Positions 21,409 to 63,779 of a stretch of DNA of 64,000 nucleotides are shown one piece after another. Positions within the stretch are counted from its first letter, which is position 1; each line of letters starts with the position of its first letter. The stretch spans positions 95,869-159,868 of IMG/VR virus record IMGVR_UViG_3300008259_003217, one strand, 5' to 3'. The stretch comes from a virus. The translations under genes and the position numbers were made by a program. The notes below the pieces were generated by a model. The model did no database searches. It had not been told where the DNA came from and saw only the letters and a list, made by a program, of their open reading frames with translations.

Positions 21409-22884
21409 ATGAGAAAAGACCAATTAAAACGTAGTATATTTAAAAAACTTTTAAGGGAAAGTATGGAATCAAAAGCTCAGGAAGTTTTAGAAAAAATAAT
21501 GAACATGAAAGACATTAATCCTGATAATGAATTTGATTATACAGCTGAGAGTAAAATGTGTAACGAATGTGGGTTAGGTGAAATGGTTGAGGGTGAGTGT
21601 AACGAATGTGGGTATTCAAAAATGTCAATGGAAGAAGAAAAAACATTATCTAGAAAACAAAAGAATATCGCAAAATTAGCTGAACCTGAAGATGAAATAG
21701 ACGCTGAGGATCTTAAAGTACTAAGATCTAAAAAACGAAAAGACATGAAAGAATCTGAAGATATGGATTTTTACAAAGACTCTGATATAATGGGTGGGGA
21801 AGTACACTCAAACAGAAGTAGAAAACATGACGATGATGAAGAAATTATGTATGAATTAGAAATGGAACGTGAAATTGACGAATCTGATGTTTGGGAAGGT
21901 AATGAATTTAGTGGTGAGTTAAATAAAGCTAGAGAACGTGGCGATGAGTATTTTACTGTTGACGATAGAAAGTATAAAGTTAGAAATGAAAGTTCTGAAA
22001 AATTCATACAAAAAGACTCAAGTAAAATGGGGAAAAAAGGAACTGAAGGTAATTTTAGAAAATGGTGTGAAAGACAAGATTTAACTAATGAAGATGGTGA
22101 GGTGACTAAATCATGTATTGACAAAGCTATGAAATCAAACGACACCAAGGTCATTAAAATGGCTACATTTGCTGCTAATGTTGGTGGATTTTTAGGATCA
22201 AATAAAGGTAAGAAAAAGAAAACAGTAAAAGAATCAGCTTTATTTACCGAAAGTGAAATTATCTCAATAATTGAAAAAATTGTTAACGAGGAAAAAGATA
22301 ATATCAAGAAAAGATCACACAAAGGTTTAGATACATACAACAAGATACATAAAGAGTCTGGTAATGAAAATGATGACTATATTAAAGCTCTAACCAAAAA
22401 AATGAATGAATATCAAAAACCAGGGTCAAAAATTAAATATGATATGAATCCAGAGGAGTTCCCAATGGCTAATGGTGATATGGATAAAAAAGCTTTTGAA
22501 CTTTCTGATGAGGGTGAAGACTTTAATTATGAAATTGGTGGATTACAAATACCGGTATCCGATGGGGTTGATCACAATGAAGAGTCAATCAAAAATTATT
22601 ATCTTGGGTCTAGTAAAACCGGAAATGAACCTGGTGGAAACGCACTTAAATCAAAAGCCAACGATAGATTTCACAAATTTGAAGAAAGAAAAACATTAAA
22701 TAAGTTAAAAAACCAATCATATAAAAGGGTAACTAGCCCAGTCTTCAATGAAAAACCAGGAACCGAAAAAGGTAAAGGTATGAATATTAAATTGGAATCA
22801 GCAGAGGAAAAGAAAGTGGAAAAAATAAATGAAGAATTTAACAAGATTAAAAATTTAATATCTTACGATAGAAAAACACAATAA
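21409..22884 (+). CDS. Probable internal virion/core protein with N-terminal tag and zinc ribbon
   Basis: 491 residues, highly charged, low in hydrophobics. The N-terminus is a basic amphipathic helix ending in LLRE, as in other tagged proteins here. A C-x2-C...C-x2-C ribbon (CNECGLGEMVEGECNECG) lies at about 52-68. At about 276-296 there is a second tag-like segment (LFTESEIISIIEKIVNEE), so the protein may be a polyprotein-like chain of processed pieces. The sequence ends with long polar regions. This suits a core or internal head protein, but no homologue was recognised. It is preceded by TATTTAT and followed by a strong terminator. Confidence 0.6.
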   Translation: MRKDQLKRSIFKKLLRESMESKAQEVLEKIMNMKDINPDNEFDYTAESKMCNECGLGEMVEGECNECGYSKMSMEEEKTLSRKQKNIAKLAEPEDEIDAEDLKVLRSKKRKDMKESEDMDFYKDSDIMGGEVHSNRSRKHDDDEEIMYELEMEREIDESDVWEGNEFSGELNKARERGDEYFTVDDRKYKVRNESSEKFIQKDSSKMGKKGTEGNFRKWCERQDLTNEDGEVTKSCIDKAMKSNDTKVIKMATFAANVGGFLGSNKGKKKKTVKESALFTESEIISIIEKIVNEEKDNIKKRSHKGLDTYNKIHKESGNENDDYIKALTKKMNEYQKPGSKIKYDMNPEEFPMANGDMDKKAFELSDEGEDFNYEIGGLQIPVSDGVDHNEESIKNYYLGSSKTGNEPGGNALKSKANDRFHKFEERKTLNKLKNQSYKRVTSPVFNEKPGTEKGKGMNIKLESAEEKKVEKINEEFNKIKNLISYDRKTQ

Positions 22885-22909
22885 TTTACATTTACATATC
22901 TTTTATTAT

Positions 22910-22943
22910 AATTCTCCATAGATACCCTATGGAGAATTTTTTT
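22910..22943 (+). terminator. Strong terminator whose stem contains the next start codon
   Basis: A 12-bp perfect stem (AATTCTCCATAG / CTATGGAGAATT) with a 5-nt loop, followed by seven Ts. The right arm includes the ATG at 22929 of the next gene. Confidence 0.85.
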
Positions 22944-23393
22944 AATTACTTATCGAAAAATTTAGATCAAGATGAAGTTGACATCTGGTTTAACGCTAAT
23001 AATATAATACCGGAAAAACTGGAGTTATATTGTGATTTCACAATTTCACTATATAATTTGGTGATGGATACTTATTTAGGTGAAAATGTGGATAATGAAA
23101 CTAAAATAACTTTATCGGATGAGGATAACCAAAAACATTTTGATTGGTGTTGGAAAAAAACCGTTGATAATTTCTCCAAGGAAGGGTTGGAATTTAATCA
23201 AAATGGAGACCATTACGATTATTTTAAATCATTTTTTGATGAGATATACTATAAACAAGATAATAAAAATATGAAAGATTCTATTGGTAAATTTTTCTCC
23301 GATGTGTTTGATCGTGAAAAACCATTTACTCGGTCAGATGTGGATATGATATACACCATTTACAAGTCATTAGATAAAAATTTAAATATATAG
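22929..23393 (+). CDS. Hypothetical conserved-type phage protein
   Basis: 154 residues, acidic and aromatic-rich, all-alpha by pattern (WFNANN, then HFDWCWKKT and DIIY-type helices). Its start codon lies inside the terminator hairpin of the upstream gene, so translation depends on how that RNA is made or folded. No function recognised. Confidence 0.65.
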   Translation: MENFFNYLSKNLDQDEVDIWFNANNIIPEKLELYCDFTISLYNLVMDTYLGENVDNETKITLSDEDNQKHFDWCWKKTVDNFSKEGLEFNQNGDHYDYFKSFFDEIYYKQDNKNMKDSIGKFFSDVFDREKPFTRSDVDMIYTIYKSLDKNLNI

Positions 23394-23395
23394 TG

Positions 23396-23424
23396 TTGAC
23401 AACCAAATTAAAAATGACTATAAT
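23396..23424 (+). promoter_or_regulatory. Perfect TTGACA-N17-TATAAT promoter
   Basis: TTGACA at 23396-23401 and TATAAT at 23419-23424 are 17 nt apart, an exact proteobacterial sigma-70 consensus. It lies 29 nt before the histone-like gene. This is not the usual Bacteroidota promoter. Confidence 0.5.
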
Positions 23425-23453
23425 TAGTATCAATAAACATTAATTTTTTAAAA

Positions 23454-23624
23454 ATGGAAACTTTAGAGCAAATTAAAACATTAACTGAGTCACTAAACAA
23501 TGATACTACCAAGTTTTTTGGTGGTAATAAAAGTGCTGGAACACGAGCTAGAAAAACAGCACAAGAATTGAAAGCGTTATTACAGACGTTGAGAGGTGAA
23601 ATTTTGGAGACTAAAAAAGCTTAA
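23454..23624 (+). CDS. Histone H1-like (Hc1-type) small DNA-binding protein
   Basis: 56 residues. The pattern KFFGGNKSAGTRARKTAQELKALLQTLR matches short Bacteroidota histone-H1-like proteins (G-x-K-A-A-G-x-R-x-R-K plus a helical dimer part). Such proteins bind DNA non-specifically and may compact phage or host DNA. It has its own TTGACA/TATAAT promoter and is followed 7 nt later by a membrane-protein gene. Confidence 0.75.
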   Translation: METLEQIKTLTESLNNDTTKFFGGNKSAGTRARKTAQELKALLQTLRGEILETKKA

Positions 23625-23631
23625 ATAAATT

Positions 23632-23823
23632 ATGTTAGGGTTGGAATCAATATTGTTTTTCGTGTTTGTGTTTTCAACCCTAACACTATTTAGGTTATTA
23701 ATGGTCACATTAATATCACTGTTTAGTTCTAACCCAAAAAGTTTAGACATCGGAAACAAAGGTCTAGTATTTTACGGGTTATTACTTTCATATATAATAA
23801 CATTTTTATTTAAAATACTATGA
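23632..23823 (+). CDS. Small membrane protein
   Basis: 63 residues with two hydrophobic helices (about 4-32 and 43-62) around a polar loop. Its stop overlaps the ATG of the next gene (ATGA). No family recognised. Membrane localisation is a safe inference from hydropathy. Confidence 0.6.
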   Translation: MLGLESILFFVFVFSTLTLFRLLMVTLISLFSSNPKSLDIGNKGLVFYGLLLSYIITFLFKIL

Positions 23824-24260
23824 GCTTATTCAAGGAATTCCAACATCTATACCCATACATCCAATCCGTAAGGAAACTCAAAAACTATTTATCATTTGAT
23901 ATTGAGTTCCCACTCACCTGGAAGATACTTAAAAAGTATGTAAACGAGAAAAATGTGATTGAGAATGATAGTACAAATAAAGGAAGTAGACATTTTTCAT
24001 TTGTTTGTGAATTTACTGAGGAATCTGTTGATGATATAATTAACAGTATAACTCACATCATACAATATAACAAAGATAAAGAAGAAAAAGAAAGGTTATT
24101 TAACTCTAAAGTGGATGAGTTAAAAAGTATCTTTGAAAAACAAAGACTTGATAACCTACAAAACTTAACGTTCCTGTTTGAATCAAACAATAAAAAGATT
24201 GAACTAGATGACGATGAAGAAGATGCCGACACAACTGGAGAGCCAAGTAGACTGGCTTAA
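23820..24260 (+). CDS. Hypothetical conserved-type phage protein
   Basis: 146 residues: N-terminal helical part with aromatic residues, then a coiled coil (about 80-125), then an acidic tail (DDDEEDAD). It overlaps the preceding membrane-protein gene by 4 nt and the next gene by 53 nt. No function recognised. Confidence 0.6.
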   Translation: MSLFKEFQHLYPYIQSVRKLKNYLSFDIEFPLTWKILKKYVNEKNVIENDSTNKGSRHFSFVCEFTEESVDDIINSITHIIQYNKDKEEKERLFNSKVDELKSIFEKQRLDNLQNLTFLFESNNKKIELDDDEEDADTTGEPSRLA

Positions 24261-24420
24261 CAGTGAGATTGAAAAAGATAAAGTAGAACTTGAACGAAGT
24301 AAGTTAAAATTTATCCAACAGATAAAAAATATGGATAGATCTGAAATTCTACCAAAACCAATAGAAATCAAAAAATTAACATTATGGGAGAAAATAATGA
24401 AAGTGATAACAAAATCTTAG
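24208..24420 (+). CDS. Hypothetical small coiled-coil protein
   Basis: 70 residues, helical, charged (VDWLNSEIEKDKVELERSK). The start may be ATG 24208, 24214 or 24223. The last part overlaps the following gene by 37 nt. This nested arrangement is consistent with translational coupling. No family recognised. Confidence 0.5.
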   Translation: MTMKKMPTQLESQVDWLNSEIEKDKVELERSKLKFIQQIKNMDRSEILPKPIEIKKLTLWEKIMKVITKS

Positions 24421-24713
24421 AGGAGTTAGCAGTTGTTACTGATAAAATACAAACAACGTTCCCAAAATCAAAGTCAACAGTAATATTTGAGATGGATGAA
24501 TATGAGTTTGCTAAAACTAAAACAATATTCAACATATTCGACAGTAACCTTAAGAGGTTTAAAATAGATATATCGGAAACAGAAATTGTCTTTCTAAATG
24601 GGAGTATCTTCAACGAAGAAGAAAAATCGGAAGAACCGGAACCAGTAGAAGAACCAGTGGAAGAACCTAAGAGGGTAAGTTGGTTTCGTAAATTATTTCC
24701 TACCGGGAAATGA
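24384..24713 (+). CDS. Hypothetical protein with PVEEP repeat
   Basis: 109 residues. A compact alpha/beta N-terminus (about 1-75) is followed by a linker of Glu-Pro repeats (EPEPVEEPVEEP) and a basic aromatic tail (WFRKLFP). Such tails often bind a partner protein. It ends within the convergent gene on the minus strand. Confidence 0.55.
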   Translation: MGENNESDNKILEELAVVTDKIQTTFPKSKSTVIFEMDEYEFAKTKTIFNIFDSNLKRFKIDISETEIVFLNGSIFNEEEKSEEPEPVEEPVEEPKRVSWFRKLFPTGK

Positions 24714-25331: not shown

Positions 25332-25334
25332 GTA

Positions 25335-25354: not shown

Positions 25355-25360
25355 ATACAA

Positions 25361-26278
25361 ATGAATACAGAAAACTATTATGATATTTTAGGTGTTAGTG
25401 AAAAAGCGACACAAGATGAGATAAAAAAAACCTATAAAAAGTTAGCTAAGGAAAAACATCCAGATGTTGGTGGTAGTGAGGAAGAGTTTAAAAAAATATC
25501 AGTAGCTTACGATATTCTTGGTGATGAACAAAAAAGGAACCAATATGACATGTCCAGACAAAATCCGTTTGGTGGTGGTTTTCCTGGTTTCGATGAAATG
25601 TTTAATATGTTTAATAGGGGTAATCGAAGACAACAAGTACATAGTACTGTAATCACAGTTACCGTTGGAACATTAGAATCCTATTTAGGTAAAGTAAAAC
25701 AATTAAATTTTAAACGAAAATCAAAATGTGACCCATGTAATGGAACTGGAGGTGATAAATTAGTTTGTCACGAATGTGGGGGTTCCGGAAACGTCATTAG
25801 ACAAATGGGGAGTGGTATGTTTATTCAAATGGTATCTATGACATGTAATACTTGTCGAGGCTCTGGTAAGATTATTAAAAACGCTTGTCACGTTTGTCAC
25901 GGTACTGGTGATAAAGATGAGATAAAAACAATTGACATAAAATTACCACACGGAATTGACGATGGTCAATTTGTTAAAGTACAGGGGTCTGGTGATTTTA
26001 GAAACGGAGTGTACGGTGACTTGGTGGTTAGAGTACAAATAACACCCGAAAATGGGTTCGAAAAGATTTCAAATAACCTAATTTACAATAAAGTATTAAA
26101 TTTAGATGAAATCCAAAAAGATGATTTTATTGTACCACACCCGGATGGTGACATGTCAATAAAATTTCCAGACACAATCGACACCTCAAAAGCTCTAAGA
26201 GTTAAAAATAAGGGGTTTAAACAACAACCACAGGGTGATTTGGTAGTAAACTTAATACTTAAGTTCACAAGGACTTAA
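25361..26278 (+). CDS. dnaJ: DnaJ (Hsp40) co-chaperone
   Basis: 305 residues, shorter than E. coli DnaJ (376). It has a J domain (1-68) with the HPD motif in KHPDVGG, a short Gly/Phe-rich stretch (NPFGGGFPGF), and four C-x2-C-x-G-x-G zinc repeats (about 125-185) starting CDPCNGTG, CHECGGSG, CNTCRGSG and CHVCHGTG. The C-terminal substrate domain is trimmed. It should stimulate a DnaK ATPase, and the phage encodes its own DnaK at 53130. It is divergent from the leftward gene at 25331 across a 29-nt gap. Confidence 0.92.
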   Translation: MNTENYYDILGVSEKATQDEIKKTYKKLAKEKHPDVGGSEEEFKKISVAYDILGDEQKRNQYDMSRQNPFGGGFPGFDEMFNMFNRGNRRQQVHSTVITVTVGTLESYLGKVKQLNFKRKSKCDPCNGTGGDKLVCHECGGSGNVIRQMGSGMFIQMVSMTCNTCRGSGKIIKNACHVCHGTGDKDEIKTIDIKLPHGIDDGQFVKVQGSGDFRNGVYGDLVVRVQITPENGFEKISNNLIYNKVLNLDEIQKDDFIVPHPDGDMSIKFPDTIDTSKALRVKNKGFKQQPQGDLVVNLILKFTRT

Positions 26279-26436: not shown

Positions 26437-26448
26437 TTTTTACTAAAA

Positions 26449-26496: not shown

Positions 26497-26503
26497 TATT
26501 TAT
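26497..26503 (+). promoter_or_regulatory. TATTTAT motif, candidate late promoter
   Basis: Lies 15 nt before the ATG at 26519. A TTGACA-N17-TATTAT match (26463-26491) overlaps just upstream. Confidence 0.45.
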
Positions 26504-26518
26504 TGATAAAATACGAAC

Positions 26519-28603
26519 ATGGAGTTAATAAAGATATTATCCGAAACGGTAGTTAAAAATATTAAAAGAAAAGATCTTTTATCGGAAGCTATGTCTGAAA
26601 AAGTTATCAAACAAATGATTGATAAATTTAGTGGTGAGACAGAGGGGGACCCAAACCCACCAACTGAGGATTATGTTAGAGAACTCATTTCAGATTTTGA
26701 AAGATTTAAACAAGCTTTTCCACCGGATAGAAGAGATATCGTACAATACACATATAACGATTTAAAAACAACAGTAGAGGAGTATAAGAAAAAACAAGAA
26801 GCTAAAAAAGCGTCTACAGAAACTTTTAAAGCTTTTATGGACAAAAATAAAGGAGCGGATATTAATCAAGTTAAGGCTAATTTTAAAGCTTTCGATATGG
26901 TTAAAGACGTATTACCAGCAAAAGAACAAAATATTTTAAATTATACCGATGTTGATCTAAATGATCTGATACAAAACCAATTCGTACCATTAATGGTCAT
27001 GAAGAGAAAAATAAAAGATCTTGAACAAATGGATCCTAGAGTATCATCACAGATACTTAAAATGCCAAAAGAAAGACTACAACAGGTATTAAACGATAAG
27101 TTTAAAGAGATTGTGGTTAGTGTTGGTTGGAAAAAATTCGCAACTGAAAATCCAGAATTAACCCCTGAAATTGTCTTACCAAGACTTGAAGCTTACGCCA
27201 CCGCTTATTCAAAAATACCATTCAACACTAAACCGTTAATGTTAATGACATTTGATGAATTCGAACATATTGTTGATGCTTTACCTGTGGACGAAGAGGA
27301 TGAAACGAAAGTAGGTATTGACCTGGATGATATCAAAACAATATATGAAGATGATGAATTATTAGTATTTTTACCAACAATAAAAAATGAATGTATCAGA
27401 ATTAGAAAAAAATACGCACCTAACTCAAGTTGGTGTACATCCTGGGATAGAGCGGGTAACTACTATTACAATTACAGATTAAAACAAAATTTAACGTTAT
27501 ATTACGTAATTGATTTAACACAACCAGCAAACTATAGAACACACCCAAATCACGCTGGTGTTGTCCTTGTTGATAGATATGGTGATAAAAGATTGGCTGA
27601 CGCTACTAACTCAGGACGATGGTCCGGAGGTCAAACAGTTAGTTGGAATGAAATCACCGAAAAGTTCCCACTACTAAAAGGTAAGGAGGATTTATTTAAA
27701 CCATTACCAATTAGTGATGAGGATAGGGAACATATGAATAGAATTGAGAGTGCTAGAGTTAGTACTGACGCTATTAAAGAATTAGGGTCTGAAGCTGAAG
27801 CTGAATTGTGGTTAGAATTGGTTGGTCCAGATTTGAGTAATAGAAGTGGTGGTTCTGAAATTTACAAGAATCTAACACCAGAACTTAAAAAGAAATACAT
27901 TGGTTTAAGTTTACCGTTAAACGCTCAAATGGTTCAGGATTCAGAACCAGATGTAGTCGCTTATTATTTGAGAGAAAAAGTAAAACAATTTGAAAATAAA
28001 TCATTAAAGGAATTAACCGAGTTAGATATCGCTCTCATCAATAGTCCGTTAATGAAAAAACACAAAGAAAAAATTAGAGAAATATACACAAAGGAAATTG
28101 AATTTGGTATTGACGAACAATTTGGTGGATCATCTTTAGAAATAAGTTACCCATCAAACATTAACGCTAAATTTTCCGCTATATTTGGATTGGAAAAATT
28201 ATTTGCTAGTGTTAAAGATAAAACCAAAATAACATATGTTTCACTTGAGAATACAAGTAAGGGATCCCTATATCTTGATTTACCAAACGAGATAGCTCAA
28301 TTTACCAACTTACAAATGTTAATTGTTGACAATTATATCAAATCAATTCCAGAAGCTATCGGACAATGTAAGTTTTTAGTTTTCTTAAACTTATTGAATT
28401 GTCCTAGATTGACAAAACTACCAAAATCAATTGTTAATTTAACTTGTTTGGAGTTTTTATCAACATCCGGATCCGGGATTGATGAAAATAGTATACCTGA
28501 ATCAGCTAAACAATATTTTATTGAGGATGAATTTATGGGTTATGTACAACCTAATTTCCCACCAGAGATGAAACAACACTGTCCAGCAACCTTTGACTTT
28601 TAA
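26519..28603 (+). CDS. Tagged protein with KWC-box domain and C-terminal LRRs
   Basis: 694 residues. The N-terminus has two tag-like elements (ILSE near 8, LLSEA near 22). A helical region (about 50-250) follows. Next is a domain (about 270-400) beginning IYEDDELLVFLP and containing SSWCTSWDR, which matches the KWC[TV]-box proteins at 41857 and 48663. After a helical stretch, leucine-rich repeats fill about 575-660 (LPNEIAQFTNLQMLIV, then LPKSIVNLTCLEFL). It is probably a late, virion-associated effector; that is inference from the tag and motif. No enzyme activity can be assigned. Confidence 0.6.
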   Translation: MELIKILSETVVKNIKRKDLLSEAMSEKVIKQMIDKFSGETEGDPNPPTEDYVRELISDFERFKQAFPPDRRDIVQYTYNDLKTTVEEYKKKQEAKKASTETFKAFMDKNKGADINQVKANFKAFDMVKDVLPAKEQNILNYTDVDLNDLIQNQFVPLMVMKRKIKDLEQMDPRVSSQILKMPKERLQQVLNDKFKEIVVSVGWKKFATENPELTPEIVLPRLEAYATAYSKIPFNTKPLMLMTFDEFEHIVDALPVDEEDETKVGIDLDDIKTIYEDDELLVFLPTIKNECIRIRKKYAPNSSWCTSWDRAGNYYYNYRLKQNLTLYYVIDLTQPANYRTHPNHAGVVLVDRYGDKRLADATNSGRWSGGQTVSWNEITEKFPLLKGKEDLFKPLPISDEDREHMNRIESARVSTDAIKELGSEAEAELWLELVGPDLSNRSGGSEIYKNLTPELKKKYIGLSLPLNAQMVQDSEPDVVAYYLREKVKQFENKSLKELTELDIALINSPLMKKHKEKIREIYTKEIEFGIDEQFGGSSLEISYPSNINAKFSAIFGLEKLFASVKDKTKITYVSLENTSKGSLYLDLPNEIAQFTNLQMLIVDNYIKSIPEAIGQCKFLVFLNLLNCPRLTKLPKSIVNLTCLEFLSTSGSGIDENSIPESAKQYFIEDEFMGYVQPNFPPEMKQHCPATFDF

Positions 28604-33850: not shown

Positions 33851-33857
33851 TATTTAT
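33851..33857 (+). promoter_or_regulatory. TATTTAT motif, candidate late promoter
   Basis: Ends 5 nt before the ATG at 33863. A TATATTTG at 33831-33838 is also present but lacks a good TTTG partner. Confidence 0.4.
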
Positions 33858-33862: not shown

Positions 33863-35410
33863 ATGAAAAAATTAGTAAGACTTAGTGAAAGTAAATTAAT
33901 TAATTTAATTAAGAACATTATCCTGGAGAATGAGGAGGACAATTACGTCGAAATCCAACCAGAGATGTATAAAAAATTATTAATGGGTGTTAATGGTAAC
34001 GCTCAATTAATTCATAACCTCCCACAATTTAAAGGTAAAAAAATACGAATCACCGGGAATTTAGATTTAAGTGATCATAAGTTTAGGGAAAAAATTACTG
34101 ATTTGGGTGACATTAGAATTGATGGTGTGGTTGATTTATCTGGTACCGGTATCAAAACGATTAAAGGAATAACAACACACTCCAATCATATCAGAGTTTG
34201 GGGAACACCGTACGAGAAATATCTTGAAAGATTAAAAAGACAACGAGAGAGAGAAGAATCTCAGGAAAGACGTGAAGAAAATGAATGGGACCTAAATAAT
34301 GGGGACACAACCGGTGAAATGGCACACGCTGTTCTTAAATTCATGGAAGACCACGATGGTTCAGTTAAACTTTTAGATGATGAAGATCAAGAAAAATTAG
34401 AAGAACTTAGAAGAAAACATAAAGAATTAGAACAAAAACTAGAAGAAGAGGAAGATGATGAAAAATCTGACGACATTGTTGTTGAAATGGATGAGGTTGA
34501 ATCTGACATCAATGATTTAATGGATGAGGTTCATGATGTCTATGATTTAGTTGAGGATGGAGGTCATTATGGTGATTTAACCATATTTAAATCTGTTAAT
34601 GACACAACTTACGGTCAAAGATACGCAGTTGGAACTGAAGACCAATTTGATGAAGCTTTAAAAGAATATTATCAAGACTGGGTTGATAGTCCCGAACAAT
34701 ATTTTGATTCAAACCACTTAGAAAGATACATAAACGGTGATGAAGTCGCTGAATACTTTGAAGATGACGTTAGAAATGACATATATGAAAGTCCAGAAAG
34801 TTATGACATTGAAAAAACTCTTAGTGGTAGTCAGGAACGTGAAATTGAACAACTAGAATATGAAAGAAGATCATTACTTCAGGAACAATTTTTAATTGAA
34901 AGAGGAGCTAGATCACCATTAACGGAAGAAGTAACTGAAAGTTTAAGGTATTTTAAATTTACCGATTACATGAATAATGAATTAATAACTCAGTACGATT
35001 CTAATCGATGGGTGATTTATCAAAACGGTAAAGAGGTTGAACAAATATACTATAGTGATGACGATGAGGATGGTGAACATGAGGAGGAAAATGAAAACCG
35101 AATAAGTGAGATTGAAGATAGAACTAGTGAAATTGAATCTGAAATTGAAGTAATTAAAGATGATCCAGATGGTGATTTAGATGATGATTCAGTGGAAGAA
35201 GCTGTTGAGGACCGATTGTCCGAGATTAGAGATAACCCGACAAGATGGTTGGATGATTATGGGATGGATTATGGTCCTTTTATTGATAAAGATGAAATGT
35301 TAGATGATTTAGTTAGTGATAGTGATTATGGTAGAATTAGTGGTTATGACGACACATATGATTACTACACAATAAATCAGGACCGATATTATGTTGTTAG
35401 AACAGATTAA
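33863..35410 (+). CDS. Tagged acidic protein with LRR-like start, probable internal virion protein
   Basis: 515 residues. The N-terminus (KKLVRLSESKLINLIKNIILE) is the clearest tag example, with LSE then ILE. Residues about 40-110 carry a leucine-rich-repeat-like pattern with LDLSD and VDLSGTGI. The rest is extremely acidic, with coiled-coil stretches (about 125-160 and 400-445). High charge without a fold suggests a core or internal protein. The tag and position downstream of TATTTAT support late expression and packaging; both are inference. Confidence 0.6.
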   Translation: MKKLVRLSESKLINLIKNIILENEEDNYVEIQPEMYKKLLMGVNGNAQLIHNLPQFKGKKIRITGNLDLSDHKFREKITDLGDIRIDGVVDLSGTGIKTIKGITTHSNHIRVWGTPYEKYLERLKRQREREESQERREENEWDLNNGDTTGEMAHAVLKFMEDHDGSVKLLDDEDQEKLEELRRKHKELEQKLEEEEDDEKSDDIVVEMDEVESDINDLMDEVHDVYDLVEDGGHYGDLTIFKSVNDTTYGQRYAVGTEDQFDEALKEYYQDWVDSPEQYFDSNHLERYINGDEVAEYFEDDVRNDIYESPESYDIEKTLSGSQEREIEQLEYERRSLLQEQFLIERGARSPLTEEVTESLRYFKFTDYMNNELITQYDSNRWVIYQNGKEVEQIYYSDDDEDGEHEEENENRISEIEDRTSEIESEIEVIKDDPDGDLDDDSVEEAVEDRLSEIRDNPTRWLDDYGMDYGPFIDKDEMLDDLVSDSDYGRISGYDDTYDYYTINQDRYYVVRTD

Positions 35411-37276: not shown

Positions 37277-37283
37277 TATTTAT
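37277..37283 (+). promoter_or_regulatory. TATTTAT motif, candidate late promoter
   Basis: Lies 19 nt before the ATG at 37303, just after the fusion gene. Confidence 0.45.
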
Positions 37284-37302: not shown

Positions 37303-38373
37303 ATGAATAAAAATCAAAAACAAATTTTGGAGGAAAAATGGAATAGACTATCAGATAATGATAAGTTATTCCTATTATCATTATGTAATGATTTATTACC
37401 AAAAAGAAAAAAAAATCTAAATGAATCACAATGGTATAACACTGTTGGTGACATATTAGGTATATTTGACCCAACTGGTGTTATAGATTTAGCTAATGGT
37501 ATCTCATACATTAATCAAGGTGATTATTTATTTGGGTTTTTATCCATGATATCGGTAATACCGTACGTTGGTGACGTATTAGCTAAACCGGTTATGGGTG
37601 CTATGAAAGTTGGTAAACCAGCGGTTAAAACATTGGATACCGCTTTGAAATTAAGTAAAGCTGGTAAAAGTGCTGAGGCTCTTGGAATACTTAAAACGTT
37701 GTCAGCGGAAAAAGGTGTTGTTGGTAATTTTGTTAGGGGGTCCGGACAGTGGACACCAAAATTAAAAGCTGCGGTTGACAATGTACCTGGTGGTGTACTA
37801 ACCAGGAGAACTAGGGGTGTACTCGGACAGTGGATAGATCTATTCTCCCAAGCTGGTACCAAAGGTAGGGTGTTAAAAGCTGAGACTGGTAATTTAGTAA
37901 AAAATTGGTCAAAAATTAGTGACGTACAGAAAATTGAAAATATTAAAAATTTACGAAAGTTAGCTGACGGATCGAGTATATTTAAGGGATATAAAAACGC
38001 CAATCCAACACTTTGGTCAGGATTAGCTGGTGGTGTTCCCAGAATATGGGGTAATAGATCTGTTAGATCACTTATGAGAAGAACTAAATGGTATTTAGGG
38101 TTTTTGGATTTTCTTGGGTTAGGTAATTGGGTTGGACCAGAAGAATTGGATGCTAAATATGGTCAGGAATATGTCAACCAAAAAGTTGGGGAGTATTCAC
38201 AAACACAACAATCACAACAGTATTATAATGACGAATTTGGGGGACAACAACCAGAAGGTGAACAACAATTAGCCGGAGCGGAAGAGATAACAACACCAAC
38301 AGAGTTATTGACTAAAAATGTGTCAAACCCAACGGTAGACCCTGTAGGTTTTTTAATTAGATCATTAATTTAG
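37303..38373 (+). CDS. Tag-like protein with hydrophobic DPTG domain, possible ejection/pore protein
   Basis: 356 residues. The N-terminus has an ILEE element (about 8-11) and a charged helix. At about 50-105 there is the pattern DILGIFDPTGVIDLANG followed by a hydrophobic helix pair (FGFLSMISVIPYVGDVLAKP), as in pre-toxin or membrane-inserting domains. The middle is basic and amphipathic, and the end is Gln/Glu-rich and disordered. The combination fits a virion protein that is ejected and enters the host membrane, but this is inference. It overlaps the convergent leftward gene by 17 nt. Confidence 0.55.
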   Translation: MNKNQKQILEEKWNRLSDNDKLFLLSLCNDLLPKRKKNLNESQWYNTVGDILGIFDPTGVIDLANGISYINQGDYLFGFLSMISVIPYVGDVLAKPVMGAMKVGKPAVKTLDTALKLSKAGKSAEALGILKTLSAEKGVVGNFVRGSGQWTPKLKAAVDNVPGGVLTRRTRGVLGQWIDLFSQAGTKGRVLKAETGNLVKNWSKISDVQKIENIKNLRKLADGSSIFKGYKNANPTLWSGLAGGVPRIWGNRSVRSLMRRTKWYLGFLDFLGLGNWVGPEELDAKYGQEYVNQKVGEYSQTQQSQQYYNDEFGGQQPEGEQQLAGAEEITTPTELLTKNVSNPTVDPVGFLIRSLI

Positions 38374-40861: not shown

Positions 40862-40890
40862 AAGGGGGGATTTATTCCCCTTTAATTTTT
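40862..40890. terminator. Bidirectional terminator at the ECF sigma stop
   Basis: Stem AAGGGG / CCCCTT with an 9-10-nt loop, followed by a T run on the plus side. The stop of the leftward sigma gene lies in the loop. Confidence 0.6.
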
Positions 40891-41423
40891 TTAAGGTTTT
40901 TCTTAAAATTAGCTTTAGCTTTATGTAGGTTTGATTTTGATGTACCCTCACTAATACCCAGTTCGTCAGCTATTTCCTGGTGAGATAGACCTTCAAAGTA
41001 GTACATCTTTAATACTTTTTTATAGTTTGGTGTTAACATATCAATAGCTTTTTTAATCTCCTCCTCACTATACTCATTCATAAATAAATTTGGGTCATTT
41101 GGCTCCTCCTCTGGAGTGGACAACAGTTCACTATCTGAAGTATGTTTCATTTTATTACCCCTCATTTGATCTATTATGTGGTTTCTAATTAACCTAGCTA
41201 ACCAACCTTGAACATTACGTACATCATCAAATTTATCAAATTTCTCATACGCTTTTATAAACGCTGACTGACAATAGTCTTTAGCTAAGTCAGAGTCGTT
41301 GTTAGACATCGGATAACAGATCTTACGATACATTTCCTGGTAATACATCTTATAGATCTCCCCAAAATCCGAAGATTCAAAAAGCAGAACTCTATATTGA
41401 TTTTCTGATAATACCAATTTCAT
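40872..41423 (-). CDS. ECF sigma factor with phage-type N-terminal tag
   Basis: 183 residues from the ATG at 41423; a TTG form eight residues longer is possible. ECF layout: region 2 at about 25-95 (DYCQSAFIKAYEKF, NVQGWLARLIRNHIIDQMR), linker, region 4 at about 128-178 with helix-turn-helix (LSHQEIADELGISEGTSKSNL). The first 18 residues (KLVLSENQYRVLLFE) carry the LSE...LFE tag seen on putative internal virion proteins. A TATTTAT lies 4 nt upstream. It may redirect host RNA polymerase; packaging is inferred. Confidence 0.85.
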   Translation of the reverse strand: MKLVLSENQYRVLLFESSDFGEIYKMYYQEMYRKICYPMSNNDSDLAKDYCQSAFIKAYEKFDKFDDVRNVQGWLARLIRNHIIDQMRGNKMKHTSDSELLSTPEEEPNDPNLFMNEYSEEEIKKAIDMLTPNYKKVLKMYYFEGLSHQEIADELGISEGTSKSNLHKAKANFKKNLKKIKGE

Positions 41424-41427: not shown

Positions 41428-41434
41428 ATAAATA
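41428..41434 (-). promoter_or_regulatory. TATTTAT motif (minus strand), candidate late promoter
   Basis: Only 4 nt before the start at 41423, implying a leaderless message if it is a -10-type element. It touches the -33 box of the divergent promoter. Confidence 0.4.
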
Positions 41435-43909: not shown

Positions 43910-43916
43910 TATTTAT
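43910..43916 (+). promoter_or_regulatory. TATTTAT motif, candidate late promoter
   Basis: Ends 5 nt before the ATG at 43922. Confidence 0.4.
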
Positions 43917-43921: not shown

Positions 43922-45160
43922 ATGAAAAATATTTTTTTAACCGAGAATCAACTTAATTATATATCAAAAAAATTGATAACTGAAGCTGTTGGAGTACCTG
44001 AAGGTATTATAGATGAAGCTGAAAAATTATATAACTTCATTTCGGAACAATTGAAAAAAATTAACACCAAAGAACCCAAATACGAATTTGGGAGTACATT
44101 TGAAATTAACATTTTGGATCTGAAATTAAAGGAACTAGAAGTTGAGGTTTCCGTTGAAACTGTCGATGAATATGATGGTGAAATGGTGATTGGGTCTATG
44201 GGTGTTTATAACCAATCTAGATTTGATACGGGTATTAAAATGGTAATTATATTACAAAATTCTAAACTAGATTTAGCTTTAAGTTTTATAGCTTCAGAAA
44301 ATTGGGAACCAAGTGATATGTATGAGTCGTTTACAAAAGATAGTATTGAAACCATCTCAATATTAGCACATGAGTTAAAACACAGATATGACAAATCCAA
44401 AAAGAAGATGGGTCAATTAGGTAAATTAGCAAAATACCAAGTATACGCGTCATCTGGAATTAGATTCGGTATTCCGGTGATCGATGATTTTATGAGAAAA
44501 TCTTATTTCATCAGTTCAATTGAGAATCTGGTTAGACCAACTGAGATAGCTGCTAGGATGAAATTAAAAGGAGTCACCAGAGACCAATTTTATGAGTTCA
44601 TAACCAATGACCCAACATTCATTGAAATTAAAAATATTAGAGATCTTACTTTTGATAAATTAATTGAAAGTATGAAAAATGAAATGGACAGAATTGATAG
44701 GTTATTAACACACGTTAAACTTGACCCAAAAAATATGTCAGATAATGAAAAAATATCAAAGATCCTTGAACTTGTATATATCAACATAGTAAACGCTAAG
44801 ATTAACATTTTCGACGATCAATTTTATAACGCTAAAGACAGACTGGACCAATTGTTTTCAAATTTTATTGGAACTTCTAGTCCATTCATAGATAAAGAAA
44901 AGGAAAGGATTAGAGATAAATACATCTCAAGAACTGTAAGGTATCAAAATGATCCTGTACAGTTTTTTAAAGATGAATGTGAAAATTTTAATAGATTAGG
45001 TAATCAAATGTTAAAAAAAATATCAAAAATTTATTCCTTAATCCCAGACGAGAAGGAACAAACAAACGAATCGATCGTGAATTGGGATTTACACCAGAAA
45101 CTTATGGAAAAGAAGTACGGTAAAAGACCAATCCAAACCACCTACAATTTCAAAAAATAA
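43922..45160 (+). CDS. Tagged zinc metalloprotease-like protein (HExxH)
   Basis: 412 residues from ATG 43922; an upstream TTG form is less likely because the tag lies at this ATG. The N-terminus KNIFLTENQLNYISKKLITEA carries LTE and ITE tag elements. HExxH is H150-E151-L-K-H154 in ILAHELKHRYD. A possible third ligand is E201 or E208 in SIENLVRPTEIAAR. A helical C-terminal half follows. It may be a virion-packaged protease acting on host proteins. Substrate is unknown. Confidence 0.65.
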   Translation: MKNIFLTENQLNYISKKLITEAVGVPEGIIDEAEKLYNFISEQLKKINTKEPKYEFGSTFEINILDLKLKELEVEVSVETVDEYDGEMVIGSMGVYNQSRFDTGIKMVIILQNSKLDLALSFIASENWEPSDMYESFTKDSIETISILAHELKHRYDKSKKKMGQLGKLAKYQVYASSGIRFGIPVIDDFMRKSYFISSIENLVRPTEIAARMKLKGVTRDQFYEFITNDPTFIEIKNIRDLTFDKLIESMKNEMDRIDRLLTHVKLDPKNMSDNEKISKILELVYINIVNAKINIFDDQFYNAKDRLDQLFSNFIGTSSPFIDKEKERIRDKYISRTVRYQNDPVQFFKDECENFNRLGNQMLKKISKIYSLIPDEKEQTNESIVNWDLHQKLMEKKYGKRPIQTTYNFKK

Positions 45161-53129: not shown

Positions 53130-54983
53130 ATGGGAAAAATTATAGGTATTGACCTAGGAACAACAAACTCATGTGTCGCGATTATGGAAGGTAATGAACC
53201 AGTCGTGATCACAAATAATGAAGGAAAACGAACAACACCTTCGGTGATTGGATTCGTGAAAGATGGGGAACGTAAAGTAGGTGATCCAGCTAAACGACAA
53301 GCGGTCACTAATCCAGATAAAACAATTTACTCAATCAAGAGATTTATGGGATTAAGTTACTCAGACTCAAAGTCCGAGTTGGGTAAAGTACCATACAAAG
53401 TAGTTAAAGGTGACAATAACACACCTAGAGTTGAAATTGATGGTAAAATGTATACACCACAAGAATTATCTGCGGTTATTCTACAAAAGATGAAACAAAC
53501 CGCTGAGGATTACTTAGGTGAAACTGTAACTGAAGCTGTAATTACGGTACCAGCTTACTTTAATGACTCACAACGTCAAGCAACGAAAGAAGCTGGTGAG
53601 ATCGCTGGTCTTGAGGTTAAAAGAATTATAAACGAACCAACCGCAGCTGCTTTAGCTTATGGTCTAGATAAAAAGAAGTCAGACATGGTAGTTGTTGTCT
53701 TTGACTGTGGTGGTGGAACACACGATGTATCAATTCTAGAATTAGGTGACGGAGTGTTTGAAGTACTTTCAACAGACGGTGATACACACCTTGGTGGGGA
53801 TGACTTTGACCAATCCATCATTGACTGGTTGGTATCTGAATTTAAAGATGAAAACGGTATTGATTTAGCTAAAGATCCTATGGCTTTACAAAGACTTAGA
53901 GAATCAGCTGAGAAAGCTAAAATTGAGTTATCGTCCTCATCCTCAACGGAGATTAACTTACCATATATTATGCCAGTTGACGGTGTCCCAAAACACTTAG
54001 TTAGGACTCTAACAAGATCTAAATTTGAACAACTAGTTGACTCATTGGTTAAACGAACAATCGATCCGTGTAAGTCAGCTTTGAAAAACGCTAAGATGTC
54101 TGTATCAGATATCGATGAGATTATCCTGGTTGGTGGTACAACAAGAATTCCGGTAATCCAGGAAGCTGTTAAGAACTTCTTCGGTAAAGAACCATCCAAA
54201 GGTGTTAACCCAGATGAGGTTGTAGCTTTGGGTGCCGCAATCCAGGGAGGTGTTTTAGCTGGTGATGTAAACGATGTTTTATTATTAGATGTAACACCAC
54301 TTTCATTAGGTATTGAAACAATGGGTGGAGTGTTCACCAAACTAATCGAAGCCAACACAACAATACCGACCAAAAAATCACAAACATTCTCAACCGCAGT
54401 TGAAAACCAACCATCAGTCGAGATACATGTGTTACAGGGTGAGAGATCAATGGCTAAGGATAATAAAACAATTGGACGATTCCACCTGGATGGTATTCCA
54501 CCATCACCTCGTGGTGTCCCACAAATTGAGGTAACGTTTGATATTGACGCTAATGGTATTATTAATGTATCAGCTTTGGATAAGGGAACCAATAAACAAC
54601 AAACAATCAGAATCGAATCATCCTCCGGTTTATCGAAAGAAGAAATTGAGAGAATGAAACAAGAAGCTGAAATGAACGCGGATGAGGATAGAAAGTTGAG
54701 AGAAGAGGCTGAGTTAATTAACACAGTAGACTCAACTATATTCCAGAGTGAGAAATCAATTAAAGATTTGGAAGACAAAATTTCTGAGGACCAAAAAACT
54801 GAGTTGAACACACTGCTGGAAAATTTAAAAGATTCTCAAAGTAAACGTGATTTTGATCTAATGAAATCTGGTTTGGATGAATTAAATTCTAAGTTCCAGG
54901 AAGTTAGTCAAAACCTTTATGAACAACCAAACTCCGACAATGTCGATAACATGTCTGACGTTGAATTTGAGGAGGTTAAGTAA
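53130..54983 (+). CDS. dnaK: DnaK (Hsp70) chaperone
   Basis: 617 residues, full-length Hsp70 size. Phosphate motifs of the ATPase domain are present: [13 protein letters not shown] at the start, [14 protein letters not shown] (a C and H replace the usual L and F), and VGGTTRIP. The substrate-binding domain and lid follow (about 390-600), and it ends EFEEVK. With the phage DnaJ it could assist folding of phage or host proteins. No GrpE was found in the window, so host GrpE would be needed. Confidence 0.95.
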
Positions 54984-59698: not shown

Positions 59699-62600
59699 AT
59701 GTTAGTAACTTAACAGGTGCTAACTGTCCATACACAGTTAATTCACCAACAAATGTTAGTGTATTTAGGATAATCGAAACAAATGGAACGTCACCAGTAA
59801 ACTGTTATACCGATCTTTCGGCAACGACATTTAACTTCTGTGATAATTGTGATTTTTCTTTTACTAACGTCACACAAAGTGGTATTGGTACAATTTCCGT
59901 TGGGAATTTAATAACAGTCCCGGTTTCCGGTTCAACAGAACCATGTACTTTAGACGCTTATGTTGTTTATTGGTATGACCAAAATAATGTCTTATCTTTT
60001 ATATCCACCGGACCAAGTTCTTCATCAATAAACCTATTTTTATTACCGAACCCATTAGGACCAGGAAACGCAAGTTCAAATTATACCCACCCATTAACCG
60101 GAGCTGCTTCAGCTACCGTCCCTCCAGGTCAATATACACCAATAGTTGTGGCTATTAGAATTAACAATATTAATTTTATTAGAAATGGTTATGAAGGGGT
60201 TAATTCAGTTGGAATAGTTAGTGACAACTTTGAATGTTTAACCGGATTAGTACCTGAATTTACAGTTTTAGGTGCTTCATGTCAGACAACAGACCCAACA
60301 TCAAACTACCCAGAATATTATACATATAGAAAATTACAAAGTAGTTTCGCTTCGACCGCACCAGCTGCACCAATTGGGTATCAATATTTAACACCAGACG
60401 CATCTACAAAATATATAGCTTTCGCTTTCAAAACCGAATTGGTTGCCGATAGATTAACCGTTAGATTTTTTGGTTCAAATTATTCATTTAGTCCGATAAC
60501 ACTTGAAGATATTTATGTTGGGAATTACCAGAATATTGGATTAAACAATCCAAATACAACACCCAAGTACATAAATATGAGTACAACAAATTACTTTAGA
60601 AAAGTAATACCAATAAGTGGATTAACGATAGACCCAACTACAGATTTCTTTGAATTCAAAATAACACCAAACGTAAGTCAAACCAGTACACAAACAAACT
60701 GGGATTTATATTATACTTGTTTAGATGACTTTGATTGTTTATTGTGTGATAATGTTAATGATGAGTACAAAATATGTGCGGATAATTTTAAATTAACATA
60801 TACCGAAGATCAACTATGTACCAGTTGTAGTCCAGTACAACAATGTTTATATGATGATACTCAAATAACTTTTAAACCGGTTAGAAATTGTGTTGAAACA
60901 AACTTTGACCCAATAGTGTATTTAAACTCAAACATACCATTCTTGGGTACACAAAATTGGTTACCAACAGGAATTACAAGTGCACATACATATTCTAATC
61001 AATATCTGGGTGGTGGTAATGACTGGAGTTGTTCACCTTGTGACCCAATATTACCATCATGTACCTTTACAGCTAATCAAACATGTCCAAATGAAGGTTG
61101 GCAAGATTTAGGTGGGAATAATGGATACTATATACAAAATTTAGTCCCTCCAGGTTGTTGGAATTGTACCGGAAGTCAAACACAGCACTGTACTGGACAA
61201 TCAACACAATTTGATAGATCAATCAGATACACTAAAGACTTTAACTCATTAACTAACACAAGTACGATTGTACTCGAATTTGGATCAAATCCAAATTCAT
61301 CAATCGATAGAACTAACTACATTACCAACTGGACTAACGCTGTTAATTTTTATTGGGTTGGAGCTTTCCAAGGACCATCTGGAATACCAACACCACAACA
61401 AGCTAAATATTATAGATGGATAAAAATGGCTGTTCCATTAGGGTTTGGGTCAGTTGTTAATTCCGGACCAAATACCGCTTGTGGTGATAATGTTGAGTTC
61501 TACAGTCAAATATACATACACCCAACCGCGGTTATGGATACATCGAATCCAAATACAATTGTTTGGACTTGGCAAACGATAACGAATCAATATGTACCAC
61601 CATTTAATGGGTGTGGAACCTGTATGTCAGCAAACGTAAATCAATTATTAAATACAGCTAATTCATTTGCACAGAGAGCTTATAATCCAACAGTGGACCC
61701 ATTTACTGATATTATAAACAATACTTGTCCAATATTAGACTGGACAAGTAATGATAGGTTCATTTCACCATGTTATACTTACAAAAATTATAGAGCTTTT
61801 TACGCATGTGCGGTATTTACCGAAAGTGGACCAACAGCACCAACACTAAGTGGTAATACTCTTTCAAGTCCACATTGTTATGGTGACCCATATTATAGTG
61901 TTGAAATATTAAAATATAGTCAAACCTTACACGCTTTCAGTGGGACAACTCCACTACCAGCACTAAGTGGTGAAGTTTGTGATTTTTCATCGTATATGAA
62001 TTTACAACAAACACCAACTAATATAAATAATTGTAATTATAATCAAATAACACAAAGTAACGGAACAGTAACCGATAGATTTGTTTATCGACGATTAAAG
62101 TATTGGTACAAATGGTTCCTAGTTAACCCAACAGTGGATGAAAGGTGGGTGAAGTTAGTGACCAAAGACATTGATTCTAATGGACTTTTAACTGGACCAG
62201 AAATAACAATATTTGAAAGAGATACAAACACTATTATTGTACCACCAACAAACCCACTATATTTTGAGTGTATACAACCAAACGCAATAAACGCGACTTC
62301 ACAACAACTACAAATATTACCGGCTACGGGTGTACTAATGTTAACACCATTTTATAGAAGTGGGTCTTGTGCACCAGCTAATCCATGGTGTACTCCTGGT
62401 GGATGTCAAAACAAAAATCCAGGATTTATTTGGACAATGACTAATGGATTAGATAAGTCAGATGTTATAAATTACGGCGTGACTTGTGAGAAAGTTGGAA
62501 TACCTGGATCAGGACCAAATGGTTGGTACTTGGTTTGGAATGTTACAAACATAAACCCAGCAATACTACCAAATATAAACGCTGGAATTTCCATTACCGC

Positions 62601-62793
62601 AAGTGGTACTGGAACCATAAACCCTACAGATTGTGTGACTGGAGTTAATACGACTTCAGGATGGTGTGGATCATGTCCAACAACTACAACACCACCTTTA
62701 CAAGAATACTTGTTTACCGTTACAGCTAATTTAGAAGCTGGAGTTGGTGGTGGATCATTAGTTGACACATTTAGTGTGTATGACTTCAGTTAA
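59680..62793 (+). CDS. Giant tail/fibre protein, C-terminal part in shifted frame
   Basis: 1037 residues counted from a TTG; the frame is open from 59587. Before the TTG it continues sensibly back as PGYGSTGFFIYADPTGPPP, so the natural joint with the upstream gene is near 59605-59615. No plausible ATG occurs until about 60577. Cys-rich beta modules and a TTTTTPP stretch near the end are like the other virion proteins here. Either a programmed -1 shift or a 1-base sequence error joins the parts. It ends before a terminator. Confidence 0.6.
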   Translation: MLAGPINVSNLTGANCPYTVNSPTNVSVFRIIETNGTSPVNCYTDLSATTFNFCDNCDFSFTNVTQSGIGTISVGNLITVPVSGSTEPCTLDAYVVYWYDQNNVLSFISTGPSSSSINLFLLPNPLGPGNASSNYTHPLTGAASATVPPGQYTPIVVAIRINNINFIRNGYEGVNSVGIVSDNFECLTGLVPEFTVLGASCQTTDPTSNYPEYYTYRKLQSSFASTAPAAPIGYQYLTPDASTKYIAFAFKTELVADRLTVRFFGSNYSFSPITLEDIYVGNYQNIGLNNPNTTPKYINMSTTNYFRKVIPISGLTIDPTTDFFEFKITPNVSQTSTQTNWDLYYTCLDDFDCLLCDNVNDEYKICADNFKLTYTEDQLCTSCSPVQQCLYDDTQITFKPVRNCVETNFDPIVYLNSNIPFLGTQNWLPTGITSAHTYSNQYLGGGNDWSCSPCDPILPSCTFTANQTCPNEGWQDLGGNNGYYIQNLVPPGCWNCTGSQTQHCTGQSTQFDRSIRYTKDFNSLTNTSTIVLEFGSNPNSSIDRTNYITNWTNAVNFYWVGAFQGPSGIPTPQQAKYYRWIKMAVPLGFGSVVNSGPNTACGDNVEFYSQIYIHPTAVMDTSNPNTIVWTWQTITNQYVPPFNGCGTCMSANVNQLLNTANSFAQRAYNPTVDPFTDIINNTCPILDWTSNDRFISPCYTYKNYRAFYACAVFTESGPTAPTLSGNTLSSPHCYGDPYYSVEILKYSQTLHAFSGTTPLPALSGEVCDFSSYMNLQQTPTNINNCNYNQITQSNGTVTDRFVYRRLKYWYKWFLVNPTVDERWVKLVTKDIDSNGLLTGPEITIFERDTNTIIVPPTNPLYFECIQPNAINATSQQLQILPATGVLMLTPFYRSGSCAPANPWCTPGGCQNKNPGFIWTMTNGLDKSDVINYGVTCEKVGIPGSGPNGWYLVWNVTNINPAILPNINAGISITASGTGTINPTDCVTGVNTTSGWCGSCPTTTTPPLQEYLFTVTANLEAGVGGGSLVDTFSVYDFS

Positions 62794-62812
62794 AAATAAT
62801 TAACTTAAAAAG

Positions 62813-62840
62813 AAAACCCCCACCTAAAATGGGGGTTTTT
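62813..62840. terminator. Repeated-type terminator AACCCCCA...TGGGGGTT
   Basis: A 10-bp stem AAAACCCCCA / TGGGGGTTTT with loop CCTAAAA and a T run. Almost identical copies are at 30681 and 63786. Confidence 0.85.
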
Positions 62841-62890
62841 ACTTTAGTAAAAAAAAGATTGGGTCATGGTGAAAGTTTCATGGTATTTTT

Positions 62891-62921
62891 TTTGTATATT
62901 AAAATATTTATTGTATATTTG
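62891..62921 (+). promoter_or_regulatory. Bacteroidota-type promoter TTTG-N19-TATATTTG
   Basis: TTTG at 62891-62894 and TATATTTG at 62914-62921, 19 nt before the ATG at 62941. A TATTTAT also lies in the spacer. Confidence 0.7.
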
Positions 62922-62940
62922 TAGAACAAAACCAAACAAA

Positions 62941-63120
62941 ATGGACACTAATAAGATTTTTGATTTTAATTACACCAAAGAACAATCAGAAAAATTTCGC
63001 AAAGAATTACGAGAGTCATCCGATCGTCCGATGAAGAATCCATATTTCTATACCACTTGGAATATGGCAACATATGGTACGAAAGAATATGACGAGAGGT
63101 TTAAGAAAATTAAAAAATGA
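62941..63120 (+). CDS. Hypothetical small protein
   Basis: 59 residues from ATG 62941, basic and aromatic (NPYFYTTWNMATYGTKEYDERF). Its stop overlaps the ATG of the next gene (ATGA), so the two are expressed together. No family recognised. Confidence 0.6.
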   Translation: MDTNKIFDFNYTKEQSEKFRKELRESSDRPMKNPYFYTTWNMATYGTKEYDERFKKIKK

Positions 63121-63779
63121 GGGATGTAATTAGAAAAATTCTCAGAGAGATATCCTTCTCAAAAGAGGGGGCAAAAAAAATTAAAAGTGACTATAATTGG
63201 AGGTACGCACAAAACCTACCAACTAAAGATGATGGTGGGAACTTTGTTGGTGGTAAAATATTTACATTTATTACACCTGAAAGAACTGAAATGGTTGATG
63301 GTGAACCCAAAACATATTCCGGATTTAAATACATTGTTGAGATTGAGGAGTATAAATATGATTTCTTCATAATCTCATTCTACCCAAAACTCCAACCTGG
63401 GTTTCATTCAAGACAAAGTAAATTAGCGTCAATGGGGTTAGAGTATAGAGACAAGTATTCATATAGAACTAACGAGAAGATAACCCTTAAGATATTATCA
63501 ATAATGATTAGTGAAATTGAAAGGATATTATCTGAGAGACCAAACTCGTCATTCGCTTATTTTGGCGCTCCAGACAAGAAAACAGGAACTGATGAGGACA
63601 TGGAAAACACAAAGAGGGTTAGAGTTTATAACAACGCCCTTGGTGAACACTTCAAGTCAACACATGAACTATTGTCTGAAGAGAAATTTAGTGGGAGTAT
63701 TTTAATTAACCGTGAAGTTAAAGAAGTACATCCGGAAATTATTGATTATTATTTGGACATTTTAATGTCACATCTATAA
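63117..63779 (+). CDS. Tagged phage protein (MRDVIRKILRE start)
   Basis: 220 residues. It begins MRDVIRKILREI, the short form of the tag found on other probable virion proteins here. The body is alpha/beta with SFAYFGAPDKKTGTDED and RVRVYNNALGEHF near the end, a pattern seen in large phages. Its upstream promoter is of host type, so the packaging idea is weaker here. Function unknown. Confidence 0.6.
   Translation: MRDVIRKILREISFSKEGAKKIKSDYNWRYAQNLPTKDDGGNFVGGKIFTFITPERTEMVDGEPKTYSGFKYIVEIEEYKYDFFIISFYPKLQPGFHSRQSKLASMGLEYRDKYSYRTNEKITLKILSIMISEIERILSERPNSSFAYFGAPDKKTGTDEDMENTKRVRVYNNALGEHFKSTHELLSEEKFSGSILINREVKEVHPEIIDYYLDILMSHL

Follow-up and report, generated by a model that had tools for sequence, protein, structure and literature searches.

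Why should proteins of one phage, otherwise unrelated, begin with a similar short stretch of residues? This question is raised by a window of viral DNA (the whole stretch analysed here, 64,000 nucleotides) that covers positions 95,869-159,868 of the linear 159,868-base IMG/VR record IMGVR_UViG_3300008259_003217, that is, the terminal part of that contig. An initial annotation had pointed to seven proteins in the window with similar N-termini, and had likened these to the targeting peptides that the protease gp21 of phage T4 cleaves from internal head proteins. The seven N-termini all read as stated there (the entry at 41423 being the start of the minus-strand gene 40872-41423), and the tagging is wider than first seen, with two more proteins of the contig whose homologues keep the end site and many tagged proteins in its relatives. 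The likeness to gp21-cleaved peptides is borne out in that a hydrophobic-x-Glu motif is common to the tag boundary, the boundary of the capsid precursor and the N-terminus of the protease. Judged from sequence comparison, the tags are very probably T4-type capsid-targeting propeptides, expanded and modular, that would provide targeting as well as cleavage.

The predicted packaging and cleavage of the tagged proteins are well supported by these comparisons, and because the tags end where the head protease should cut, they probably load proteins into the head. In the mechanism that we propose, tagged cargo would be made late in infection, and the N-terminal tags would steer otherwise unrelated proteins into the prohead core. 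A gp21-type protease of family S77 would cut the tags past [LI]-x-E and free the mature cargo, which would stay in the head with the DNA. The cargo would probably enter the next host along with the DNA, and such injection seems to us somewhat more plausible than its contrary.

Tag classes and their distribution

For each of the three tag classes (A, B and C) we built a position-specific profile and applied it to residues 1-36 of all called proteins, with gene starts from a simple in-house caller; the null consisted of 10,018 segments of 36 residues taken from protein interiors in six contigs. The seeds were 69 strings for class A and six distinct nine-residue strings for class B, both without G001, a close relative of 296,330 bases whose tail tube is 85% identical to that of the window's contig; G001 itself supplied those for class C. 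No seed was taken from the window's contig, where 5 of 143 proteins are tagged at p < 0.001 (about 0.4 expected), all five of them named earlier. At the same threshold the relatives have 43/350 (G001), 20/290 (G019), 47/350 (G021), 24/331 (G016) and 20/288 (G012) tagged proteins, with about one expected in each; the class C count of G001 is circular because its own sequences served as seeds, and the counts of G012, G016, G019 and G021 are slightly so because each gave one class A string. Several internal segments, in G001 and G021, also score highly (L097, L098, L406, L411), which would suit a fusion of two tagged units. The proposal that all seven proteins share a tag thus stands by profile at p < 0.001 for those starting at 21409, 33863, 41423, 43922 and 63117, and does not stand by profile alone for 26519 (p = 0.011) and 37303 (p = 0.045), which are recognised as tagged through their homologues.

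A loosely degenerate DNA pattern for the class A string TESDLTRI-x-[KR]-R, with its position left free, matched at least 120 stretches in IMG/VR, and 80 loci were read. Among the matches listed, all 98 start 6-8 residues past the nearest ATG, and 95 of them do so when the count is made from the frame's most upstream ATG instead. The 88 unique copies among these matches invariably have Glu at residue 22 and one of I, L, V or M at residue 20 (I or L in 83/88), both positions lying outside the search pattern, while residue 21 is variable and each position from residue 24 on carries less than 0.6 bit of information. Behind these tags, 86 bodies among the matches listed represent 63 families. In the GTDB collection (one genome per species, 84,980 species; contigs of at least 3,000 bases) the exact class A pattern was unmatched, and a bacterial origin of the tag was rejected on that ground; coincidence was rejected on this absence together with the N-terminal placement and the constant Glu.

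For class B (K-[IV]-[IV]-I-T-E-x-Q-Y), scanned in IMG/VR with figures from 80 loci among the matches listed, the string is N-terminal in 84 of 85 matches, the remaining one having no in-frame ATG, and [LIVMF]xE is found within 12 residues in 55 of 60, as against 21% of internal 12-mers. A DNA pattern for class C gave one match, its reading frame interrupted by stops. Searches of GenBank phages by tblastn returned no match to a 23-residue tag (weak evidence, the query being short) or to the protein at 43922. Tag strings occur in the literature text only in papers that are, judged by title, on unrelated subjects, and the T4 targeting-peptide string was not found in that text.

A common junction and the head protease

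The tags are exchanged between bodies. Over all the loci fetched, the 834 tagged bodies of at least 50 residues form 283 families by single linkage with loose cut-offs, and 65 families have more than one tag state, many of the members marked '-' resembling weak tags; 16 families bear two or more tag classes. The clearest case is the family of 43922, in which tags of differing length and class meet one junction in 5/5 homologues (LITE/AVGVP, LISE/AVGVP, LLNE/AVGVP, LITE/KLGVP, LITE/ALGVP and VLLE/RLGVP, the slash marking here and below the cut or its predicted place). For nine proteins of the contig, the seven and the two further ones, the aligned junction has an [LIVMF]xE no more than three residues away in 39 of 40 homologues, and in 37 the two coincide exactly, against a random-position background of 16.7%. 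In this count the junctions of the window's proteins were placed by eye, that of 37303 after its homologues had been seen, and only homologues were counted; seven without N-terminal coverage and those identical in the first 45 residues were dropped, and the remainder are not independent of one another.

The same motif is found in the proteins of the head itself. In the lineage the capsid precursor reads ENQAS[FH]LINE/A in 13/13 cases, aligned with the T4 gp23 site GSFLTE/AE at residue 65, and the N-terminus of the protease has [LI]-x-E-[SN] in 13/13. At what we take to be the catalytic positions of family S77, the His, Ser and Asp are conserved in 13/13. The T4 sites that served as a yardstick are LTE/AE at 65 in gp23, LIE/TW at 9 in gp21, IAE/A at 10 in IPII and IPIII, and ITE/A at 19 in IPI. 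A longer form of the motif, E[NS]Q-x3-[LIVMF][LIVM]-x-E, was counted 15 times among 1,752 proteins, seven times within the first 20 residues, four times in four capsid precursors and four times elsewhere; from this, the capsid propeptide may be what the class B tag imitates, in its end part.

One check proposed earlier was to look for a prohead protease in the rest of the genome; none was matched in the contig itself. Among the relatives, G001 encodes an S77 protease (E 5e-23) and gp23 (E 3e-64), and both are present in the same 12 of the 15 tagged contigs that exceed 100 kb among the 80 class A loci listed, G001 not counted. The window's contig (GC 32.9%), which is probably incomplete, has genes for a head-tail adaptor and for a tail sheath and a DNA polymerase, both of T4 type. 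One of the three contigs in which the protease was not found, G012, is probably a fragment, because it lacks all six of the G001 head-region proteins that were compared with it.

A common N-terminus could also be an address that directs proteins to another part of the virion or to the host membrane and stays on the mature protein. With this would agree a helix predicted, at low confidence, for residues 8-22 of 43922, and the abundance of cell-wall enzymes among the bodies that can be recognised: a scan of the 140 longest of 294 body representatives gave 20 Pfam families, of which 10 are cell-wall binding or hydrolysing, seven come from the window's sigma factor and three are others (GIY-YIG, AAT and Glyco_transf_11), and the named top matches in PHROGs are mostly endolysins. 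We nevertheless consider a retained address unlikely, for the conservation of class A ends directly past the Glu, the same motif stands at the capsid-precursor boundary in alignment with the T4 cut, and tags that differ in class and length end at one junction.

The DNA in front of the tagged genes bears on a different explanation. TATTTAT lies within 60 nt upstream of 37 of the 143 genes in the window's contig (3.4 expected) and 105 of the 350 in G001 (11.3 expected). The observation that most of the seven genes follow this box is confirmed, with 63117 as the only exception. In G001 it stands before the genes for terminase, portal and scaffold (these three named by eye) and for protease and capsid; in the six contigs together, 90 of 159 tagged genes have it upstream, as against 430 of 1,593 that are untagged (Fisher p = 1e-13). 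Because some replication-like genes carry TATTTAT as well, these figures are support, not proof, for its being a late promoter box. The spacing between box and ATG is bimodal, with groups at 3-8 nt and 12-17 nt (boxes in the window at, for example, 33851-33857 and 43910-43916), and the shorter spacing is commoner in tagged (50/90) than in untagged (119/430) genes; it would give leaderless or near-leaderless mRNAs.

This frequent close spacing, and the shuffling of the bodies, would be expected if the common N-termini were a recombination or translation-start device, in which conserved DNA or RNA aids gene shuffling or leaderless translation. The class A codons argue otherwise: pairwise differences amount to 36.9% (0.369) at third positions and 11.6% (0.116) at second positions, and 87 of 87 DNA sequences are distinct, encoding 72 peptides. 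With differences three times as frequent at third as at second positions, selection acts on the class A peptide and not on its DNA, and conservation of the tag at the DNA level was rejected. Residues 20 and 22 are moreover kept as amino acids, and the end site is retained in classes B and C despite their different sequences, so that we regard such a device as very improbable. Ordinary paralogous families with a conserved first helix and no separable tag are harder still to credit, even with some tagged genes being true tandem paralogues (for example, those of class B at 238-243 kb in G001), given the many families behind class A alone and the 16 body families with at least two tag classes.

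Several observations weigh against capsid-targeting propeptides. The residue past the class A cut is Gln in 34/88 copies, whereas it is Ala at four of the five T4 sites, and the T4 peptide of IPII and IPIII (MKTYQEFIAE/A) is by eye unlike the tags except for the initial MK and the end motif. One of the 40 homologues has no site at the junction, and the excess of TATTTAT at tagged genes is not significant in G016 or G012 taken alone (two of the six contigs). Model searches for the S77 prohead protease, gp23 and the T4 portal were unmatched in the window's 160 kb contig, where the absence is unproven as control genomes were also unmatched; S77 and gp23 were both unmatched in ten further records, fragments of 43-84 kb, searched alongside G001, and the protease was not found in 3 of the 15 large tagged contigs. 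The cell-wall cargo, half of the recognised Pfam families (10/20), could act at lysis without being packaged. Finally, the Flavobacterium phage immuto (NC_055915), a more distant cultivated relative with an S77-type protease by annotation, has only 2 of 205 proteins that pass the tag profiles.

Tagged proteins of the window

Among the tagged proteins of the window are a sigma factor and a candidate peptidase. The former, encoded on the minus strand at 40872..41423 (183 amino acids, class B), carries the tag MKLVLSENQYRVLLFE/SSDF (position-specific scoring matrix, PSSM, p = 0.0008) with a TATTTAT box at 41428-41434, and is an extracytoplasmic function (ECF) sigma factor, with Pfam matches over the cut-offs to Sigma70_r2 (E 1e-10) and Sigma70_r4_2 (E 5e-18). 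Its two divergent homologues among the fetched loci (L287 and L316, Pfam having been run on one of the two) are fusions in which a class B tag is followed by a 37303-related hydrophobic domain, then by another [LIVMF]xE and finally by the sigma region; [LIVMF]xE directly precedes the sigma region in all three proteins (3/3). The layout of the two fusions resembles that of modular delivery proteins. In IMG/VR the sigma factor was found in three identical copies and nothing more. A second sigma-70 protein of the window (15715-16515) has no profile tag.

The protein at 43922..45160 on the plus strand (412 amino acids, class A) has the tag MKNIFLTENQLNYISKKLITE/AVGVP (PSSM p = 0.0004) and a box at 43910-43916. 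Its HELKH motif, with H150, E151, H154 and a later Glu, E201, invariant in 6/6 sequences, suggests that it may be a zinc metallopeptidase of the HExxH...E kind. It has no Pfam family, its AlphaFold model is poor (predicted local distance difference test score, pLDDT, 64.5), and a fold search of the PDB was empty at E 0.001.

The five other proteins are all encoded on the plus strand, and beyond the sigma factor PHROGs and Pfam return almost nothing for the bodies of the window. At 33863..35410 lies a protein of 515 amino acids with the class A tag MKKLVRLSESKLINLIKNIILE/NEEDN (PSSM p = 0.0004; box at 33851-33857), whose homologues have class A or class C tags and keep the junction in 7/8 cases, five having been dropped. 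The class C protein at 21409..22884 (491 amino acids; tag MRKDQLKRSIFKKLLRE/SMESK; PSSM p = 0.0008; box at 21387-21393) keeps its junction in the 4/4 homologues whose N-terminus is covered, with one dropped, and its body has no Pfam or PHROG match. By eye, a tag-like stretch also occurs inside this protein, at residues 277-295 (22237-22293 of the window). A second class C protein, of 220 amino acids at 63117..63779, begins MRDVIRKILRE/ISFSK (PSSM p = 0.0005), has no TATTTAT within 60 nt and keeps its junction in 2/2 homologues.

The two proteins that do not reach p < 0.001 are each upheld as tagged by the [LIVMF]-x-E that their homologues retain. For the 694-residue protein at 26519..28603 (tag MELIKILSETVVKNIKRKDLLSE/AMSEK; PSSM p = 0.011, borderline; box at 26497-26503), which has C-terminal leucine-rich repeats (the LRR_14 match falls short of the Pfam cut-off), 4/4 homologues have the site at residue 23, with a displacement by one residue in one of them. 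For the protein at 37303..38373 (356 amino acids, with a hydrophobic domain and a long N-terminal region; PSSM p = 0.045, not significant; box at 37277-37283; no Pfam match), the motif ILEE had been taken as the site, which is the wrong place; the site is at residue 41 (KNLNE/SQWYN) in 7/7 homologues, several of them with class B tags and one further homologue dropped. The two further proteins of the contig lie outside the window, at contig positions 10182-10643 (minus strand) and 65916-66611 (plus strand); the site is present in 4/4 homologues of each, and neither passes the profile test at p < 0.001.

Taken as a whole, the set could be a cargo system with interchangeable tags, 20-47 profile-tagged proteins per large contig, release by the protease and injection, including a late-made ECF sigma factor that would redirect the RNA polymerase of the next host, and we hold the case for this full scheme to be evenly poised. 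The injected proteins of uncultured phages are hard to know, and if the scheme is true, the tags list the cargo from genome sequence alone, so that candidates for counter-defence or take-over could be picked by their tag in a phage group common in metagenomes. The ECF sigma factor would then arrive ready-made and act at once on the RNA polymerase of the next host. Tags that can be swapped would further point to a packing code, one that might be transferred to other T4-type heads in laboratory phages.

Known counterparts and the phages that carry the tags

The principle of a targeting peptide is already known, since the internal proteins of T4 are, according to passages of PMC3012670, diverse and conserved only in their capsid-targeting sequence (CTS). 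In T4, as passages of PMC9958956 describe, gp23 loses 65 residues, gp21 removes nine of its own, and the CTS of IPII and IPIII has about 10 residues. Similar to this CTS, cut by gp21, the tags are short N-terminal peptides with an [LI]-x-E end on otherwise diverse proteins, a gp21-type (S77) protease and gp23 are present in relatives, and a promoter-like box is shared with the head genes. They differ from it in length (about 11-23 residues, and about 41 in one case), in comprising several classes, with five large contigs having 20-47 profile-tagged proteins apiece, in being swapped between bodies, and in their peptide sequence. In giant phages of the SPN3US/phiKZ type, a prohead protease likewise strips N-terminal propeptides from several head proteins, and many internal proteins are thought to be ejected (from passages of PMC10052503); there, 14 sites in nine substrates delimit propeptides mostly of 111-254 residues (two of 20 and 24), in contrast to the short, modular, common tags described here. 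As far as our searches show, the novelty lies in the lineage and the tag classes, in how many tags each contig has and how they are exchanged between bodies, and in the tagged sigma factor; no earlier description of the tag system was found in the literature, a claim limited to open-licence full texts.

Chen et al. (2022) described bS21-encoding phages of freshwater Bacteroidetes with genomes of 293-331 kb and a GC content of 31.0-33.7% (passages of PMC9723584). A bS21 gene was found at E <= 0.001 in 11 of 15 contigs searched (14 relatives and the window's own), nine of them above the Pfam cut-off, and it was unmatched in the window's own contig and in G001. In each contig that has it, the gene adjoins the prohead protease gene, just upstream and on the opposite strand (G019 116341-116496, minus strand; G023 98627-98782, minus strand; and nine others). 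Because 11 of the 15 contigs carry bS21, the tagged phages very likely belong to the same group, and the GC content of the window's contig falls within the published range. The hosts of these large T4-like phages are probably freshwater Bacteroidetes. The tag system is a difference between the two accounts, being unmentioned in those passages of PMC9723584. The same passages raise the possibility that bS21 itself is packaged; as tagged cargo it was rejected, for by eye a tag was seen on none of the 11 bS21 proteins, and none of the six that were scored passes a profile.

In the cultivated phage immuto, the capsid precursor has ENQAKQIVSE/A, and three proteins (L454-L456), two of them adjoining the terminase gene, have a common tag-like start of a different kind, MENFDLKKFLVEN and similar. 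This different start and the few profile passes in that phage indicate that the tag classes are not general to T4-like phages of Bacteroidetes.

Open frames in the window at 53130-54983 and 25361-26278 resemble, by eye, the chaperones DnaK and DnaJ. The portal-like gene of G001 (L101:2873-5968, equivalent to G001 162873-165968) encodes 1,031 amino acids, including an insert that is missing in three relatives and whose edges are intein-like by eye.

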